A DNA stretch of 7,960 nucleotides from Candidatus Lindowiibacteriota bacterium (lineage in GTDB: Bacteria; Lindowbacteria; 2-12-FULL-62-27): NCBI GenBank assembly GCA_023249255.1, contig JAHFCY010000062.1:6388-14347 (forward strand), read 5' to 3'. The notes beneath the pieces were generated by a model. The model was given only the letters and a program-made list of their open reading frames with translations. It was not told the origin of the DNA and did not search any database. A program made the translations under genes and the position numbers. Positions 44 to 7,960 of this stretch are shown here, piece by piece; position 1 is the stretch's first letter; each line of letters starts with the position of its first letter.

Positions 44-1204
44 TCATTCTCCGACCGCCGATCCAGGGAGGATGGAGAATTTGAATGAGCCGGTGCCGGC
101 TGGAATGCCGCCGCTGGTGACGTCGGCTGAAACCGACCAATCGCATTTGGTCATGAATTCCACTCCCTTGTAAGTGACGCCGATCGACGACATCGAAATA
201 TCCGCGCCGCTTGTGCCGGCCGCCGAGCTTCCTGAAACCGCGAGTGAGACGGGCGATTGAGGCAATGCGGTCGTGAACTGGATATTGGATCCGACGTTCA
301 TTGCCGTCGACCACGATCCCTGCGACGACGTGAATTTCAATTGAATCACATCGCCGGTTTTGAAGACAACGCCGGCGAGTTTGACGGTCTGGTTCGTGAC
401 GGTCGCCGTGAGTTTACCGGCCGTGTTCACGGAAATTTCAGCCGGGGAGACGGTGAGCGCGGCCGGCACAACGGGCGAGCCTTTGACCGCGAACTCGTAA
501 ATGCGCGCCGCTTTGTCGGTGGTGGTTTGCGTCGGGGTCGTGACGTTCAATTTGACGTATCGCGCCTTGGCCGTTGTCGTATGGGTTGTCACGCCGAGCG
601 TGTTTCCGGTGACCGTCACGGCGTTCGTCCAAGTCGTTCCGTCAACGCTGACGGATATGTCGAAGTCTTTTGTGTTGTACGCCGTTCCTTCGTTTCCGGC
701 CGACGCGTGGCTGACGACGAATTCGGTCAGGTTGGCAACGGATCCGAGGTCGACTTGGAGAAATTTGGATGACGCGCCCGAACACCATTTGTCGGACCAG
801 CCGCCCGAGACACTGCCGTTGAACGCTTTTTCCGCGCCTTCGGTCGTCCCGCACGGCGTACTGCTCGTGGCTGTTTTGTTCAGAGCGAGATTCGATGGCA
901 ACACCGCCGCTGCGACGGGGGTTGTTGCGGCCGGAGTTGCGACAGCAACGGAAACCGTAAATTCCTTCACGGAGAGAACCTCCACACTTCGGGAGTCGGC
1001 GCCGATCGTCATGCCGTTTTTCAACACGCCGGCCTTGGCGACCAGCTGTGCCAGATCGTCCTGCGCGGAAGACGTATATCCGGCGGCGAAGGCGGGAACT
1101 GCAAAGAAGAGAAACATAAAGATTATAAGGAAGGCATGAAGGGAGGAAAAATTCGTTGGAGGAAATCTTCCTGCGTTCCTATCTTCCTTATGGATAATTC
1201 TCAT
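44..1204 (-). CDS. Exported discoidin (F5/8 type C) domain protein with an unrecognised C-terminal beta-rich domain
   Basis: A 386-residue protein. The signal peptide has an unusually long n-region (residues 1-25), then a hydrophobic core FLIIFMFLFFAVPAFA, with cleavage probably after residue 40 or 41. The next ATG (residue 30) lies inside that core, so the ATG at 1204 is the start. Mature residues 42-82 are a short helical and extended segment; 84-102 are an Ala/Thr/Pro/Val linker; 103-242 are an F5/8 type C domain with NLALNK, AFNGS, KWCSG, LQVDLGSV, DISVSVDG..W and ARYVKL, ending ARIYEFAV. Residues about 245-386 look like one or two beta-sandwich domains (alternating hydrophobic strands, Ser/Thr/Gly-rich) that I cannot assign. 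Bacterial discoidin domains are mostly carbohydrate-binding modules, so glycan binding outside the cytoplasm is likely. No catalytic domain is present. The domain matches the C-terminus of the giant protein two genes upstream at about 60% identity by eye. The start overlaps the previous stop (ATGA). Confidence 0.92.
   Translation of the reverse strand: MRIIHKEDRNAGRFPPTNFSSLHAFLIIFMFLFFAVPAFAAGYTSSAQDDLAQLVAKAGVLKNGMTIGADSRSVEVLSVKEFTVSVAVATPAATTPVAAAVLPSNLALNKTATSSTPCGTTEGAEKAFNGSVSGGWSDKWCSGASSKFLQVDLGSVANLTEFVVSHASAGNEGTAYNTKDFDISVSVDGTTWTNAVTVTGNTLGVTTHTTTAKARYVKLNVTTPTQTTTDKAARIYEFAVKGSPVVPAALTVSPAEISVNTAGKLTATVTNQTVKLAGVVFKTGDVIQLKFTSSQGSWSTAMNVGSNIQFTTALPQSPVSLAVSGSSAAGTSGADISMSSIGVTYKGVEFMTKCDWSVSADVTSGGIPAGTGSFKFSILPGSAVGE
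479..898 (-). repeat. Discoidin domain copy 2 (middle of the third protein)
   Basis: This segment encodes residues 103-242 of the third protein and is homologous to the C-terminal domain of the giant protein. Similarity is also visible in the DNA: both copies carry closely related stretches around the AARIYEF codons (near 490-510 and 2190-2210). The duplication therefore seems to have occurred within this locus or a close ancestor, followed by divergence. The Cys at residue 118 and Cys 141 (KWC) correspond to the two Cys of copy 1. Confidence 0.9.
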
Positions 1205-2175
1205 TTTCCCAACCTCGTTTCGCGGAGGATTGTCCGGCCGGCAAGGACAGGCGCGCCGGGGTTGGCCGGATCGACGGCAATTCGGACCAGGATTGTCGGG
1301 TCGTAGTCAAACATTCTGTTGATGAGCTCGCGCTCGGCGGCGAGGGCGGACGAAGCGGCCGGACCGATGACGGCGCCGGTTTTCGCGAATGTTTTTTGCG
1401 TGGCGGCGGCGAATCGGTCGTATTCCTTCAGCATCGGGTCCGAGAGTTTTCGACGCTGGGACGAGAGGAGTAGGAGGCGCGCGTCGGTGTCGGTGACGCC
1501 GCTCTTGTCGAGTTCGCCGGTCAACTTGATCAAAAACGAAACGTAACTGTCGGCCATCTGGTTCGTGATGACGGACGCGGTTCGGGTGATGGATTTGGCC
1601 ACCCGGCGCCGAAGGGCCGCGTCACCTCGCGGAGCGGCGCGCCGGAGCAGGTCCGTAAAATCGCTTGCCGCCACTGTGTCCTCCACCAGTTCCATCACTC
1701 TCGCGGGCGGCGATCCGCCGGAAGTTCGGATAACCTCAAGCACAGTCAGCGGGTTTGCGATCAGGAAATCCTCAAGCCGCGCGCGCTCGACGGTCAGAAG
1801 AATGGAAAGCGGCGAAGCCATCGGGCCGGGCGCCCTGGAGCGCATCCGCGCCGCGAACGAATCGAACGCGGCCAGAGACGCATTAACGTACGTGTCCTGC
1901 TGTTGGGCAAGAAATACTTCCTTGTGCAGGGTCTTGCTGATGCCCTGCTCGTCAAGAATCTTCCCCGCGCCGCGCACATACGCGATGTACTCCCCGGCCA
2001 GCCGGTCGGTCAGCTTCGTGACCTGCGCCCGAATGTCCGCCACGACCTTCCGCAAAGAATTCAGCGCCGCGCGCTTGGATTCGAGCGAAGCCGGCGAGAC
2101 GGCTTCGGCCCGCACCGCGGACGGTCCGGCAAGCGCCAGAGCCGTCAACAAGGCGAATAAGACAGATCGCATCAT
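1201..2175 (-). CDS. Exported helical protein made of two diverged copies of one module; function unknown
   Basis: A 324-residue protein that I do not recognise. Residues 1-23 form a Sec signal peptide: MMR, hydrophobic core to about residue 16, then SAVRA before EAVSP, a good signal peptidase I site; no lipobox Cys is present. The mature part is predicted all-helical, rich in Ala, Leu and Arg, and has no Cys. Residues 44-150 and 192-301 are homologous to each other: they align without gaps at an offset of 148 residues (EYIAYV with SYVSFL, LDEQGIS with LDKSGVT, FDSFAAR with YDRFAAA). A 3-residue insertion then shifts the offset to 151 (ERARL with ERELI, NPLTVL with DPTIL). The start is ATGATG; the first ATG overlaps the upstream TGA and has GAGGTG 8 bases upstream, so translation is probably coupled to the giant gene. 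The stop overlaps the next start. A periplasmic or surface accessory partner of the giant protein is inferred from context only. Confidence 0.9.
   Translation of the reverse strand: MMRSVLFALLTALALAGPSAVRAEAVSPASLESKRAALNSLRKVVADIRAQVTKLTDRLAGEYIAYVRGAGKILDEQGISKTLHKEVFLAQQQDTYVNASLAAFDSFAARMRSRAPGPMASPLSILLTVERARLEDFLIANPLTVLEVIRTSGGSPPARVMELVEDTVAASDFTDLLRRAAPRGDAALRRRVAKSITRTASVITNQMADSYVSFLIKLTGELDKSGVTDTDARLLLLSSQRRKLSDPMLKEYDRFAAATQKTFAKTGAVIGPAASSALAAERELINRMFDYDPTILVRIAVDPANPGAPVLAGRTILRETRLGK
1213..1216 (-). promoter_or_regulatory. Ribosome binding site of the third gene
   Basis: GAGG on the minus strand, 8 bases before the ATG at 1204, inside the last codons of the second gene. Same spacing and same overlap arrangement as the preceding junction. 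Confidence 0.7.
1273..1602 (-). repeat. Internal module B of the second protein
   Basis: Residues 192-301, the diverged second copy of module A. Landmarks are DSYVSFL, LDKSGVT, KEYDRFAAA, ERELINRMF and DPTILVRIA. Offset to module A is 148 residues before, and 151 after, a 3-residue insertion near residue 265. Residues 151-191 between the modules form a basic helical linker (RRAAPRGDAALRRR region). Confidence 0.72.
1726..2046 (-). repeat. Internal module A of the second protein
   Basis: Residues 44-150. This is a helical module of about 107 residues, homologous to module B. Landmarks are GEYIAYV, LDEQGIS, AAFDSFAAR, ERARLEDFL and NPLTVLEVI. No known domain recognised. Confidence 0.72.
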
Positions 2176-5100
2176 TTGCCGTTCACCTCAAATTCATAAA
2201 TGCGCGCGGCATTGTCGGTCGTTTGCGTCGGCGCCGTGATTTCCAGCCGGACATATCGAGCCGACCGAGTTGTCGTGTGTTTGGTCACGTTGCTCGTGTT
2301 TCCCGTCACGGTGACATCCGTCGACCAAGGAAGGAGGAGGTCATTGCTGACCTTGATCGTAAAATCCTTCGTGTTGAAGCTCGCGCTCTCGCTGCCGGCG
2401 CCCGCGTGCGCGACAACGTAACCCGTGATTTCGCGGACCGAGCCGAGATCGACCTGAAGATATTTCACTGCGGCCCCCGAGCACCACTTGCCGATGGCGC
2501 TTCCGTTGAACGCCTTTTCAGGCCCCTCGGTTGTGGCGCAGGCTGTACTGCCGGTCGCGGCTTTTCCATTGGCGACATTCGACGCCGACGGCGTGAAGGA
2601 AGTCGCGGTCGTTGTGCCGGCCGTCGCGGTCGGCGCGCTTGTCCCGCCGCTTTGTAGAGCCGCCGACTTTTTCTGAATTTCCAACTGAAGCAATCCCTTA
2701 TCCGATGCTTGCAATTTGGACGTTGTCGGCAAACCGAGCGACGGGTCCGTGCCTACTCCGCCGGAATTGAGGTGGGTCTGGATCTGGCCTAATTCAAGAA
2801 CGTTCTTCGCGCTGTTGATGCGATTCTTGAAATCGGCAACCGATCCCACGTCCACAACGGGCTGGCCCGGCGGCGTGGACGCGGCTTGGAGCGTCGTCGT
2901 CCGCGAAGAGATACTGCTGATGAGAGTCGCCTTCCGCTCGGCCGATAACGCCGAGTAATCAGGCGCGACTCCCGCTCCGGCGGCGCGCGCCACGCCGTTG
3001 AGATCATTTTTCGTCTGGGTCAATGTTGCCAAGTCCATCGTCGCAACCTTCGACATCAGGTCGTTAAACAGCGCCGTCGCGGCCTTCTCCTTCTCGGCCG
3101 CTGTCACAAGCACGATTCGCGCGTCGATTTCGGTCGCGATCAGCGTTTTCTGGTCAGCGGTCAACGTCGAAACGTCAGGATACTGTTTTGAGACAGTTTG
3201 CGATTTCGTCCCCGAGACATGGTCCTTCAGAGTCTTCAGCACCGCCGACGAATCCGCGCCGGTGATGGCGGCTCGGACCGTCTCAAGTTCGCGCGTCGAG
3301 ATGAGATCGGCAGTCTCTTTGATAAGCGTTTGGCGGTCCGCGTCCGAGAGCTTGTCGCAGCCCGGGACGGCATTTTTGATGCTCAAATCCACGCTTTTCT
3401 TCTCGAGTTCCGACTTGATGGAAACAAGATAATCTCTGTCAGCGGTCTTGGTGACTTTCCTGTAGTCGTCGGCGGCGAGAGACGATATGCGCGCGTTGTA
3501 TTCACTCGTCAGCGTGGCTCGCTGGTCCGCCGTCAGAAAATAGTCCATGCTGGAGGGTGTCTCACCGGTTCCGAGCCGCCACTTCGTCAGTCCGGCAATA
3601 TACACGCGATATGCCGCCATGGCATCGTCCTGCTTCTTCTTCAGGCCGCCCTTCGCGGTGGCGGCTTCGGTCTTGAGCGTCGCCCGTTGATCCGCGGTCA
3701 GAATCTTGACGTCGATATCCTGAACCCACTTGGGTTGACTTGTCCGGTCGAATGTTTTGTAGTTGTCCGTGAAGCCGGTGAAATCATCGAAGCCCTTTTC
3801 GGAATCGATCCGTCCGATATAATCTCGGAAATTGGTCATGGCGGCGGATTGCAACCCCGGCAGTTCGGCCAACCGTTTGCGGGCGTCATCTTTCATTGCG
3901 CTGATATCATCCTGCGAGAAAAGCGAAAAACTCCCCAGAGTCGAAACCGTTTTTCCCTCCAGATGCCCGATGAAGAGATTGATCTCGTCGGTGGTTGTGT
4001 ATCCGTAGAGGGCGTCGGACAGCGGTTTCCGCTGTTTCGCAACTATGCTGTTCCAAGCGGCGGCTTCGGCGGCCTTAAGTTCCTTGATCCGCGTATCGGC
4101 CTCCGCGACAAGCGTTTTTTCGTCGGCCTCGGTAACTCTGCGTTTTCCGTCGGACGTTGCACTCGCACGTAACTGAAAGTCAGCCTTCAACTGTGTGGCC
4201 GCGGCGCTCGTCGTCGCGCTCTTCAACAAAGCGCTGTAGTAACTGACCAGTTTTGCGGCGCCCTTGGCATCCAGTGAGTCGATCTTGTCATCGATCTTTT
4301 TGAGCATGGCGTCCCTCGCCGCCGCGGTGGGCCAGAGGTAACCGTTCTTGATCGTATCTTTCAATCTCGTGCAATCGACGGAACTCACCGCGTTGTCAAC
4401 CTGGAATTCGATATCGCTCCAGTTGGGATCGGAGCCCGCGGAACCGAATCTTCCGTCCTTCTCGCTCTGAATGTCCTTTCGAAGCGACTCATTCTCGGCG
4501 TATGTCAGCAGGTTGAACTGCATCTCGCCGACGGTCTGGCTGGTCGAAACTTTGTCCAGCCACCAGTTGAGTTCGGCCCTCGTTTTCGCGTTCTTGGCGA
4601 TTGTCTTAGACTTCTCCAGCGTCTTGTCATGCCCCGCCTTCGACTCATCCACCGCCGCCTGGATCTCCTTCTTCAGCATATCTTTGTCGGACGTGGAAAG
4701 GCGCGACCCATCCGGAAATCCGCGGGCGGCGTCGATTTCGTTCTTGTCTATGTAGGTGTTCAGCATATAGGCCGTGCTGTTTACAGCGGTGGAGAGTTCG
4801 GGCGCATAGATGCGGATCTTTTCGATCCATTCGCGAACGTTCTTGATTGCTTCGAGAGAGGCATTGGCCTTGGAGGTCACGTTCCGGATGGACACGGCGC
4901 GCGTGAGGTCCGTCCTCTCCTGTTCCGTCAAAAGGTCAGACGTGTTGATGTCGGATTGGACCGTATTCAGAGCGCTCTCGCTGGCCGCGCTCGCGATGCG
5001 CGACTCAAACCCCGAAGCCGCAGATTTCTTCAATGCCTTGAGACGTTCATCATTGGCCGCGATCAATTTGGTTTTGTCGGATTCGGGGATATCCGTAAGC

Positions 5101-7960
5101 GCGTTCAATGTGCTCTGCATGGCCTTACTCGCCGCGCCGGTCATGACGTTATTGATATCCGCGGAGATGAAATTGACGATCTGCAGGATTGCCTTGCTCC
5201 GCAACGTCGCTTTGATCTCCGCGCCAAGCACGGTGTTTTTTTCGATGGTGGGCAAAACTTCTCTAACGCCGGCCGTCGTCGTTTTTGCGGTCAGGTCGGA
5301 GACGAAGGCTTTCGCCGCTTTCTGGCGCGGGATTATTTCCGCGCAGATGTTTGCTTTCTGGACGTCCGTGAAATTCGCGAGATCGGGCGCGGTCGCGGTG
5401 GGCTTGGGCGGCGGCTGCCACGATGAGGCGTCGGCGTTCAATGGGCGGCTCGTGCACACATAGCTGAACCACGCATCGAGTTCCTCGAGCGTCGCGGCGG
5501 CGGCGACGGACGTTTTCATGCCCGCTTCAAGCTCGGCCAGCTCCTTTTCCAGAGCGGCGATCTTGTCCGCGACTTCGCCCTGCATCTGCGCCTTCTGAAA
5601 CATGGTCATGCTCGCGACGTCGACGTTGCCGCCGAAGTCCCAGTTCTGCGTGCCGTCCAACGCATCCTTGAGCTGGTGGGCCTGGAAGAGATTGTTCCGG
5701 GTGAGGTAGTACCGGATGTTCTTGATCGACGTGTATGGCTTCATCACCTTCTCGAGCGCAGTCTTGAGCGTCTTAATCTGCCCTGTCGTCAGATTTGCGA
5801 TACTCCCGAGGTCGGAGGGCAGTCCCGTGTTGGTCGTTCCATCGAGCAGGCTCGAGAGATTGTTGAGGTCCGCTTCCGTCACCTTCGGACCCTTCATGTA
5901 CACCTGAATGGCCGCCATCTGCTTGAAAGGTTGAAGCAGTTTGTCAACTTCGGTGCGGAGTTTGTCCCGCTCCGCTGTTGTAAAGTACGATAAGTCGAAC
6001 TTCCAGACTTTCTCGAGCATGATCTTGCCGTTCGCGTAGTAATCCTGAACGTTTTCCGGGGCGTTGTCCCGAAACCCATCCGTGAGGTTTTGGACCATGT
6101 TATCCATCTGCGCTTTCCGGTACTCGGTATATTTCGTGTTGAACTTCGTCTCCGCGTCGCCGCCGCGCGCGCCCGAAAGATCGCTGTAGCCGGGCCACGG
6201 AGTTCCGGCGAGCGCGTCGCGGATGGCGAAGTAGTCCCGGATGGTCTTGGCGGCGTCGGTCAGAGATGCGACGACTTTGCCCACCTCGGCCACGATATTC
6301 TTGCTGTCCGCCTCCGCGGCTTTTGCGGCGGAATCCGTGAACGCCTTCATCGCGGCGTACAGTCCTCCCACGTCCACCTGACCCCCGCCGAACACGAACT
6401 CTCCTCCTGTCAGGGGGTTGAGAATCGCGTCGATTTCATCGGTGAGGGTTCTGATCTGGTCCTCGGTGAGGTCGTGTCTCTGTCCCCATGTGACAAAGAA
6501 TTCCCCGATCATGTTGTGCGGCGTCTCGGCGTGATCCACGAAATTCCGGATGACGGTGAGCGACTCGCGAAGCCTGGAGATTTTCTGTTCTTCGCTCGGC
6601 ATCCGCGGTTCGGGCTTGGGCATGCCGGGACGATCGGCCCCGGGCGTGCCGAAGGGACCCTCCCACTCTGTTTCGCGCGGTTTGTCGATCGGTTTCGGAT
6701 TTTTGTAGTCGTTCAGCTGCGCGGCCACGAAATCGCGAACGATCTTCATCGTGGCGGCGGCGCCCTCGACCTTGACCGTCTTCAGCCGCATGTCGATTGA
6801 CTGGACCAATTTCTCCTTCGCGTCGGCGGTCAAATATTCGACTTTTTTGTTGACGAGCTCGTCCAGCGTCGTCACCGGATCCGTGAACAGGGCTTTGTAA
6901 TTTTCTAGTTCGTATGCCGACTTCGCGTTCGCCACATATTCAAGCGCGGCTCTGTACTGCAGGTCCGAAAACGCGACGGTTTGTTTGGTGATTTCATAGT
7001 CGATCGTCGTCTTAAATGCCTGACGCGACGCGCCGGTGAGGTTCTCGATGTTCGGGAACCTGAAATAACGGTCGACCTTCGTGCCGTCCAGAAATCCCTT
7101 CAATGCCCGCAGTTCGGCCAGATTGGAGCCGGGAATGAACGCGACGAGCCATTTTTTGGCATCGTCGGCGGATACTGGCTGGGGATTGAGAATCTCGTCG
7201 ATCTCGCCTTTCAGCGTGCTCTTCTGGTCGGCCGAGAGGCGCGCGTCTTTATCGATTTTTTCTTTGAGGTCGTTAAACGACAAGACGCTCGTGGCGTCGT
7301 TTTTGCGATAACGCATCATGTCGCGGTGATCCTTCATCGCCAGTTCCGCGATGCCGCCTTCGAGGTTCTTGAGGAAATCCTGCGTCTTCGGCCGGACGAT
7401 CGAAATCGTCATAAAGGGAATAGTGATCACGCACGCCGGATCTTTGAGGATATCTTCCTTCAATTTTTTGAGATCGTCGGCGGTCGACGTTGGATAAATT
7501 TTCGCCTTATAGCCATCAAGCGCCTCGGCCTCGCGGAGGACCGCCCGGGCGTAGGCCGCTTCCTGCTCGGCTTGCTCCTTGGCCGCGCGGGCCGCCTCCT
7601 CGCGCTTTTCCGCGGCCGTGTCCACATCGCCGCCGAACCAACTGCAAAACTCGTCCCACGCCGCCTCAAGCGCCTCCGCGGCAGCGTTAAAGAGATCCAC
7701 CGCCGCGCCCAGCGCCTGCTCGGCCAGCTTCAGCGCCTCCTTCGCCGTCTCCACCGTCGCTCCGACCGGATCGGACGCGAGTTTCCCGAGTTTGTCCTTG
7801 ACCGAGTTGAACGCGCCCTCGCCTATATCCTTGGCGGTGGTGAGCGCGCCCGCGAGGAGTTTCTGCGTGTTCGCGGCGGGGTCATCGAAGAATTTTTTGG
7901 AGGCGTTCGCGAGCGCCGCCGCGGCGTCATAGCCCTTGTTCGCGAGATCTTTCGTCGTGC
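2172..7960 (-). CDS. Giant helical-repeat protein with C-terminal F5/8 type C (discoidin) domain, 5'-partial
   Basis: At least 1,928 codons are visible (roughly 200 kDa) and the frame is still open at the right edge, so the N-terminus and any signal peptide lie outside. A GTG at 7752-7754 has a nearby GGAG, but the 68 codons upstream continue the same Ala/Lys-rich helical composition and contain no ATG, so I treat that GTG as internal. Order from the N-terminus: Ala-rich amphipathic helices, with probable coiled coil near 7520-7620; about 23 degenerate helical repeats (7238 to 2679); a Pro-rich linker inside the array (6582-6713); a Thr/Ala/Ser linker; and a discoidin domain (2175-2582) with C...KWCSG, LQVDLGSV, NTKDF and ARIYEFEV. 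Bacterial discoidin domains usually bind carbohydrate and occur in exported proteins. No transmembrane segment, LPXTG or enzyme domain is seen. The stop overlaps the next start (ATGA). A role as a surface stalk or adhesin is inference; the repeats are not a family I can name. Confidence 0.9.
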   Translation of the reverse strand, partial: TTKDLANKGYDAAAALANASKKFFDDPAANTQKLLAGALTTAKDIGEGAFNSVKDKLGKLASDPVGATVETAKEALKLAEQALGAAVDLFNAAAEALEAAWDEFCSWFGGDVDTAAEKREEAARAAKEQAEQEAAYARAVLREAEALDGYKAKIYPTSTADDLKKLKEDILKDPACVITIPFMTISIVRPKTQDFLKNLEGGIAELAMKDHRDMMRYRKNDATSVLSFNDLKEKIDKDARLSADQKSTLKGEIDEILNPQPVSADDAKKWLVAFIPGSNLAELRALKGFLDGTKVDRYFRFPNIENLTGASRQAFKTTIDYEITKQTVAFSDLQYRAALEYVANAKSAYELENYKALFTDPVTTLDELVNKKVEYLTADAKEKLVQSIDMRLKTVKVEGAAATMKIVRDFVAAQLNDYKNPKPIDKPRETEWEGPFGTPGADRPGMPKPEPRMPSEEQKISRLRESLTVIRNFVDHAETPHNMIGEFFVTWGQRHDLTEDQIRTLTDEIDAILNPLTGGEFVFGGGQVDVGGLYAAMKAFTDSAAKAAEADSKNIVAEVGKVVASLTDAAKTIRDYFAIRDALAGTPWPGYSDLSGARGGDAETKFNTKYTEYRKAQMDNMVQNLTDGFRDNAPENVQDYYANGKIMLEKVWKFDLSYFTTAERDKLRTEVDKLLQPFKQMAAIQVYMKGPKVTEADLNNLSSLLDGTTNTGLPSDLGSIANLTTGQIKTLKTALEKVMKPYTSIKNIRYYLTRNNLFQAHQLKDALDGTQNWDFGGNVDVASMTMFQKAQMQGEVADKIAALEKELAELEAGMKTSVAAAATLEELDAWFSYVCTSRPLNADASSWQPPPKPTATAPDLANFTDVQKANICAEIIPRQKAAKAFVSDLTAKTTTAGVREVLPTIEKNTVLGAEIKATLRSKAILQIVNFISADINNVMTGAASKAMQSTLNALTDIPESDKTKLIAANDERLKALKKSAASGFESRIASAASESALNTVQSDINTSDLLTEQERTDLTRAVSIRNVTSKANASLEAIKNVREWIEKIRIYAPELSTAVNSTAYMLNTYIDKNEIDAARGFPDGSRLSTSDKDMLKKEIQAAVDESKAGHDKTLEKSKTIAKNAKTRAELNWWLDKVSTSQTVGEMQFNLLTYAENESLRKDIQSEKDGRFGSAGSDPNWSDIEFQVDNAVSSVDCTRLKDTIKNGYLWPTAAARDAMLKKIDDKIDSLDAKGAAKLVSYYSALLKSATTSAAATQLKADFQLRASATSDGKRRVTEADEKTLVAEADTRIKELKAAEAAAWNSIVAKQRKPLSDALYGYTTTDEINLFIGHLEGKTVSTLGSFSLFSQDDISAMKDDARKRLAELPGLQSAAMTNFRDYIGRIDSEKGFDDFTGFTDNYKTFDRTSQPKWVQDIDVKILTADQRATLKTEAATAKGGLKKKQDDAMAAYRVYIAGLTKWRLGTGETPSSMDYFLTADQRATLTSEYNARISSLAADDYRKVTKTADRDYLVSIKSELEKKSVDLSIKNAVPGCDKLSDADRQTLIKETADLISTRELETVRAAITGADSSAVLKTLKDHVSGTKSQTVSKQYPDVSTLTADQKTLIATEIDARIVLVTAAEKEKAATALFNDLMSKVATMDLATLTQTKNDLNGVARAAGAGVAPDYSALSAERKATLISSISSRTTTLQAASTPPGQPVVDVGSVADFKNRINSAKNVLELGQIQTHLNSGGVGTDPSLGLPTTSKLQASDKGLLQLEIQKKSAALQSGGTSAPTATAGTTTATSFTPSASNVANGKAATGSTACATTEGPEKAFNGSAIGKWCSGAAVKYLQVDLGSVREITGYVVAHAGAGSESASFNTKDFTIKVSNDLLLPWSTDVTVTGNTSNVTKHTTTRSARYVRLEITAPTQTTDNAARIYEFEVNGK
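2175..2582 (-). repeat. Discoidin domain copy 1 (C-terminus of the giant protein)
   Basis: This segment encodes 136 residues that run to the end of the protein and is homologous to 479-898 in the third gene, in the same orientation. Shared blocks include TTEG.EKAFNGS, KWCSGA, LQVDLGSV, NTKDF, VTVTGNT, HTTT..ARYV, PTQTT and AARIYEF. Compared with copy 2 it lacks a 4-residue insertion before KWC and has one extra residue in the loop before the conserved Trp. The Cys at domain position 15 and the Cys of KWC are present in both copies and could form a disulfide. Confidence 0.9.
2184..2189 (-). promoter_or_regulatory. Ribosome binding site of the second gene
   Basis: GAGGTG on the minus strand, 8 bases before the ATG at 2175, inside the last codons of the giant gene. 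Together with the ATGA overlap it supports re-initiation or coupled translation and decides the start. Confidence 0.75.
2679..7238 (-). repeat. Array of about 23 degenerate helical repeats in the giant protein
   Basis: The unit signature is close to LTADQRATLKTE, usually followed by I-D-x-R-I. The first signature residue falls at 7238, 7040, 6833, 6470, 6167 (weak), 5984, 5792, 5609, 5372, 5228 (weak), 5090, 4931, 4700, 4508 (weak), 4331, 4136, 3920, 3701, 3536, 3350, 3164, 2948 and 2714 (minus strand). Spacing is mostly 46-79 residues, with larger gaps of 121 and 101 residues around the Pro-rich linker. Most constant are position 1 (Leu/Phe/Val), Thr/Ser at 2, an acidic residue at 4 and Leu at 9. 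Several units have an LDGT-like turn 17-18 residues before the signature (7080-7091, 5835-5846, 5649-5660). Each unit probably folds as two or three helices. The pattern loosely recalls the helical GA/FIVAR modules of giant Gram-positive adhesins such as Ebh; that is a resemblance only. Confidence 0.82.
6582..6713 (-). other. Pro-rich linker interrupting the repeat array
   Basis: About 44 residues of the giant protein, rich in Pro, Lys, Glu and Gly (for example KNPKPIDKPRE and PGMPKPEPRMP), with almost no hydrophobic periodicity. It lies between the repeat signatures at 6833 and 6470 and explains the long 121-residue spacing there. It probably forms an extended hinge between an N-terminal three-unit segment and the main array. 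Confidence 0.7.

Follow-up and report, generated by a model that had tools for sequence, protein, structure and literature searches.

The stretch of DNA analysed here (the window, 7,960 nucleotides) corresponds to positions 6388-14347 of a contig of 14,347 bases, and carries a giant gene followed by two smaller genes on the same strand (Table 1). Of the giant protein 1,928 residues are visible, since the contig stops at the window end and the reading frame is therefore open at its N-terminus. Two relatives, G1A and G1B, are encoded by the genome of Candidatus Lindowbacteria bacterium RIFCSPLOWO2_12_FULL_62_27 (G001). On another contig of the window's own genome (C47), a frame located at L036 2238-3731 (+) begins, as G1A does, with a signal-like stretch and a beta-rich domain, and runs off the contig end; we infer from this that it is probably the missing N-terminus of the giant gene. 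ATPase-like and transposase-like frames, as judged by eye, precede it. The giant protein is probably secreted, as indicated by the signal-like starts that were recognized by eye in the relatives and in the C47 frame.

Table 1 Features of the window and of the related loci in genome G001 (window positions, unless a locus is named; aa, residues of the visible giant protein)
Feature	Position	Strand	Basis
Giant protein	2172..7958	(-)	Open frame, contig end, relatives G1A and G1B in a second Lindowbacteria genome
Ala/Lys/Glu/Asp-rich segment of amphipathic appearance, aa 1-150, kept in relatives	7509..7958	(-)	Alignments; amphipathic character judged from the sequence
Helical repeat array, 22 detected units, aa 212-1770	2649..7325	(-)	Profile, shuffles, leave-one-out; AlphaFold2 of the last four units
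Proline-rich insert separating units 3 and 4, aa 416-455	6594..6713	(-)	Read from sequence
Probable worn unit or insert, aa 517-617	6108..6410	(-)	Below profile threshold; candidate worn motif picked by eye
Four-unit stretch with structure prediction, aa 1495-1772	2643..3476	(-)	AlphaFold2
F5/8 type C (discoidin-like) domain, C-terminus of giant protein	2193..2555	(-)	Pfam PF00754 E=1.5e-13, PF22633 E=3.2e-10
Companion gene, 324 aa, signal-like start, 4-base overlap with giant gene	1201..2175	(-)	Homologues at both G001 loci
Second downstream gene, 386 aa, signal-like start, F5/8C domain	44..1204	(-)	Pfam PF00754 E=2.4e-17
G1A, 3,537 aa	L022 4224-14837
G1B, 2,159 aa	L023 2872-9351

The giant gene and its neighbours

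Conservation between the giant protein and its relatives starts at the first visible residues, with residues 1-119 aligning to residues 1792-1903 of G1A (34% identity, 4e-9) and residues 6-428 to residues 550-975 of G1B (31% identity, 1e-34). At the other end, the F5/8C domain scores 51.4 bits against a curated PF00754 cut-off of 28.2, and the matches of the giant protein to plasmids are limited to this domain. Weak matches of the whole protein to Mito_fiss_reg (0.015), YlbF (0.0028) and ZPR1 (0.0088) are far below the cut-offs and were discarded. An origin from a phage, or an identity as a tape-measure protein, was also rejected, as no phage record matches, no viral contig was found and the relatives have signal-like starts.

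The companion protein belongs to no Pfam or NCBIfam family, and its two halves resemble each other. At each of the two G001 loci, homologues of 31-35% identity come immediately after the giant gene. The proteins of this group (L022 14834-15766 and 16377-17318, L023 9383-10372) are about 310-330 residues long and have signal-like starts, and the four-base overlap with the giant gene is found in L022 as well. The F5/8C domain of the 386-residue protein is approximately 61-63% identical to that of the giant protein. The maintenance of the companion beside the giant gene, together with the presence of an F5/8C domain in the product of the next gene, suggests on the basis of gene arrangement that the giant gene and its neighbours share a function.

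The C-terminal domain of the 386-residue protein recurs with 88% identity farther along the contig (L001 334-684 (-)), and a weak copy of it lies next to the L022 giant gene. Candidate defence genes are also located near the giant gene (L001 5202-6356 (-) and 691-2973 (-)), namely one for a PDC-S02-type nuclease (E=1.4e-134) and one whose helicase-like product weakly matches AbiO/Nhi.

A degenerate array of predicted three-helix units

In a preliminary description, the array was presented as a degenerate series of about 23 helical units, spaced at 46-79 residues and of an apparently undescribed type. The first motif, LSADQKSTLKGE, begins at window position 7238, exactly as listed there, and the last one at 2714. 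A repeat profile of about 53 residues detects 22 units in the giant protein, a search that is partly circular because the profile was made from 20 hand-cut units of the same protein. Most consecutive motifs are indeed 46-79 residues apart, with two exceptions of 121 and 162 residues. The interval of 121 residues is due to the proline-rich insert after unit 3, whereas the interval of 162 residues probably holds a worn unit that scores below the profile threshold and with which the count would become 23.

The repeat array is real, as confirmed by several controls. In leave-one-out tests, which were not wholly blind as the unit boundaries had been preset with the full profile, 20 of the 22 units outscored the best of 50 shuffled versions of themselves and 16 outscored all 1,100 shuffles; the two that failed (aa 882-930 and 928-976) are short neighbouring units. 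With a profile made only from window units, two proteins of another Lindowbacteria genome reached 122.4 and 135.7 bits, against at most 5.4 for 60 shuffled and 3 reversed controls. Shuffling, reversal and leave-one-out testing thus rule out a chance or low-complexity repeat. For alignment, non-overlapping segments were taken. The mean pairwise identity of the units is only about 15-22%, which makes the array a degenerate one, and it is the same regardless of the distance between units, so that no recent local duplication is visible. Exact copies of LTADQRATL are present at aa 1420 and 1475.

The helical character that had been read from the sequence agrees with the structure prediction. The AlphaFold2 model of the four-unit stretch, obtained with 10 sequences, has a mean pLDDT of 78.7 and a pTM of 0.55, and contains three helices (A-B-C) in each unit. 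At two of the three junctions helix C is continuous with helix A of the next unit (H45-73 and H107-144), while the third junction is interrupted by a Pro-rich linker. The model resembles a series of partly joined three-helix units more than it does a superhelical solenoid of compact shape, the packing of the units being uncertain at this pTM. The best-conserved columns are mainly hydrophobic core positions and the LT-K/E motif of helix C. A Foldseek search with the model gave no match in the PDB or among viral models at E<=0.001, which does not show that the fold is new, and closer structural comparison only retrieved common three-helix arrangements with Z values of at most 7.1, which is background for helical models.

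Relatives, distribution and family assignment

G1A and G1B share an order of parts in which a hydrophobic, signal-like start (judged by eye) and a conserved N-terminal region are followed by the beta-rich domain, the Ala/Lys/Glu/Asp-rich segment and the array. The beta-rich domain, of about 320 residues, occurs in about five copies in G1A and once in G1B. Its predicted structure (mean pLDDT 75.3) has no PDB match at E<=0.001, which again does not establish a new fold, and does not clearly resemble a lipid-transfer fold (Z 5.3 at best, which is background for the method). An iterated profile detects 11 units in G1A and 7 in G1B, next to the 22 of the window protein, and the profiles of the window units and of the G001 units match each other with 98.5% probability in hhalign. 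The C-termini are of different types: that of G1A has a DUF4214 followed by two F5/8C domains, whereas that of G1B has a B_lectin domain, and a second B_lectin-like stretch, read from the sequence, lies inside the G1B array.

Among up to 386 genomes, nearly all from other families, the unit profile gave matches at E<=1e-4 only in the window's genome and in G001, and none in a third genome of the same family (G002); weak single matches elsewhere (E 2e-4 to 0.01) were taken as chance. A GTDB scan with the whole giant protein, by a method that finds close relatives only and may omit the window's own genome, yielded no match. The host of the giant protein has no close cultured relative.

No significant match of the repeat units was found in Pfam, NCBIfam, PHROGs or PDB profile searches, the first three of which were done with 40 units. 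The unit appears to represent an undescribed repeat family within a known kind of protein. The nearest look-alikes that had been proposed are the GA and FIVAR modules of giant adhesins, and one could suppose that the units are very divergent members of these named families. By eye there is some resemblance to GA in an A-t-t-eL-k pattern, and GA was the sole named look-alike in the Pfam, NCBIfam and PHROGs searches, with a match in one of the 40 units (E=0.014), a value that is unremarkable when 40 units are scanned. On the other hand, the whole giant protein has no match to GA (PF01468), and at E<=1 this family has no match in the window's genome or in G001; FIVAR (PF07554) was not found in the whole protein, the 40 units or these two genomes. 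Profile-profile comparison with family sequences taken from other genomes gave a probability of 0.9-1.5% for FIVAR (13 sequences) and of 0.3-0.8% for GA (an alignment of only two sequences), compared to 98.5% for the positive control. With empty searches and values below 2%, membership of GA or FIVAR is not supported, and at the sequence level neither seems to be a detectable relative of the repeat unit; that they are nevertheless its true family is very improbable.

Possible role of the array

We consider it fairly probable that the array forms a long helical stalk, variable in length, within a secreted giant protein whose end carries a carbohydrate-binding-type domain. The units, of about 53 residues each (46-79 if loops are included), would consist of a helix A (hxxFxxxIxxA), a helix B (TxxeLxxLKxxLdG) and a helix C (LTADQKatLKxEIdxRI). 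Helix C could continue as helix A of the unit that follows, and a chain of such three-helix units may extend over the whole array. The N-terminal beta-rich part would then be positioned near the cell, the helical chain could project outward from the cell surface, and the F5/8C domain of the window protein, or the B_lectin domains, may attach to glycans, either at the tip or along it. A stalk is favoured because the number of units varies among the relatives and lectin-type domains, of different families, are present at the ends. The observation that conservation mostly concerns hydrophobic core positions and the motif of helix C also makes this the best-supported reading. Of the stalk, spacer and multivalent binding solenoid that were suggested previously, the stalk thus comes forward, and the choice is narrowed rather than settled. 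The protein showed no recognizable surface anchor. Domains of the F5/8C type are found in enzymes as well, and can bind ligands other than sugars.

It can also be envisaged that ligand binding is done by the repeats, at many sites, as in Embp of staphylococci, with the C-terminal domain only assisting. The array is the largest portion of the visible giant protein, and repeats of three-helix bundles can bind directly in Embp. However, the surface has no obvious patch of strong conservation, the top columns being core hydrophobics and the helix-C motif, and the units are just about 15-22% identical, so that we regard binding by the repeats as unlikely, although conserved charged positions (K, D, E) may be binding residues. 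Even less probable, in our view, is a role as a lipid-associated structural bridge or envelope component, in which the beta-rich domains and the amphipathic segment do the work and the array is a spacer inside the envelope. Such a role would agree with the preservation of the amphipathic segment in all three proteins and with the multiplication of the beta-rich domain in G1A, but the beta-rich model lacks a clear lipid-transfer match and the lectin-type domains at the opposite end suggest an outward orientation.

If the array indeed acts as a stalk, its closest functional counterparts may be the rods of Embp and Ebh. These giant extracellular proteins are composed of many degenerate three-helix units, with a helix common to neighbouring bundles, and are rod-like (PMC7587433), a similarity that on the side of the present protein rests on the AlphaFold2 model with its pTM of 0.55. 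The F- and FG-repeats of Embp are pairs of three-helix bundles that behave as rods in solution and bind fibronectin (PMC7587433). By analogy the giant protein may work like an Embp/Ebh rod, even though there is no detectable sequence relation, the PDB entries of these proteins not being listed by the unit profile at E<=10. Another difference is that the present array is combined with F5/8C or B_lectin domains and with beta-rich domains, in an uncultured lineage. Giant1-3 of Apilactobacillus kunkeei are very large extracellular proteins that also have long rods of alpha-helical repeats, called undescribed by the authors, and beta domains at the ends (PMC12863079). Compared by description only, they differ in that the repeats are parallel alpha-helical and the N-terminal part is a beta-solenoid (PMC12863079). 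Spectrin repeats likewise consist of three-helix units linked by continuous helices, but the present units are about half as long and have no sequence match to them; in the structural comparison, beta2-spectrin repeats 14-16 were retrieved at background level (Z 5.9 over 199 residues, rmsd 15.3).

Cultured Firmicutes are already known to have giant surface proteins that contain worn helical repeats. The present case concerns an uncultured lineage, a repeat that has no name in the libraries used, and lectin-type tips that differ between paralogues. A more complete picture, which we put forward tentatively and with somewhat less than even confidence, is that of a three-helix repeat that is new and to date known from Lindowbacteria only, builds a stalk through helices that pass from unit to unit, and is combined with a beta-rich repeat domain whose fold is unassigned, interchangeable lectin-type tips and a conserved companion that is made alongside. 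If confirmed, the unit could enter domain libraries as a candidate for a new repeat family, and the proteins would serve as an example in which the length of the array and the binding domain seem to change independently of each other.

F5/8C domains were also encountered in a different setting. In G002, a frame of 1,474 residues (L024 2681-7102 (-)) has a signal-like start that is immediately followed by a ubiquitin domain (Pfam E=6.8e-24), and further carries two F5/8C domains and Ig-like domains; it seems to be an example of a bacterial ubiquitin-like domain that is secreted. A frame of 2,053 residues in G001 (L039 5151-11312 (+)) has a signal-like start and, by reading, a similar ubiquitin-like sequence.
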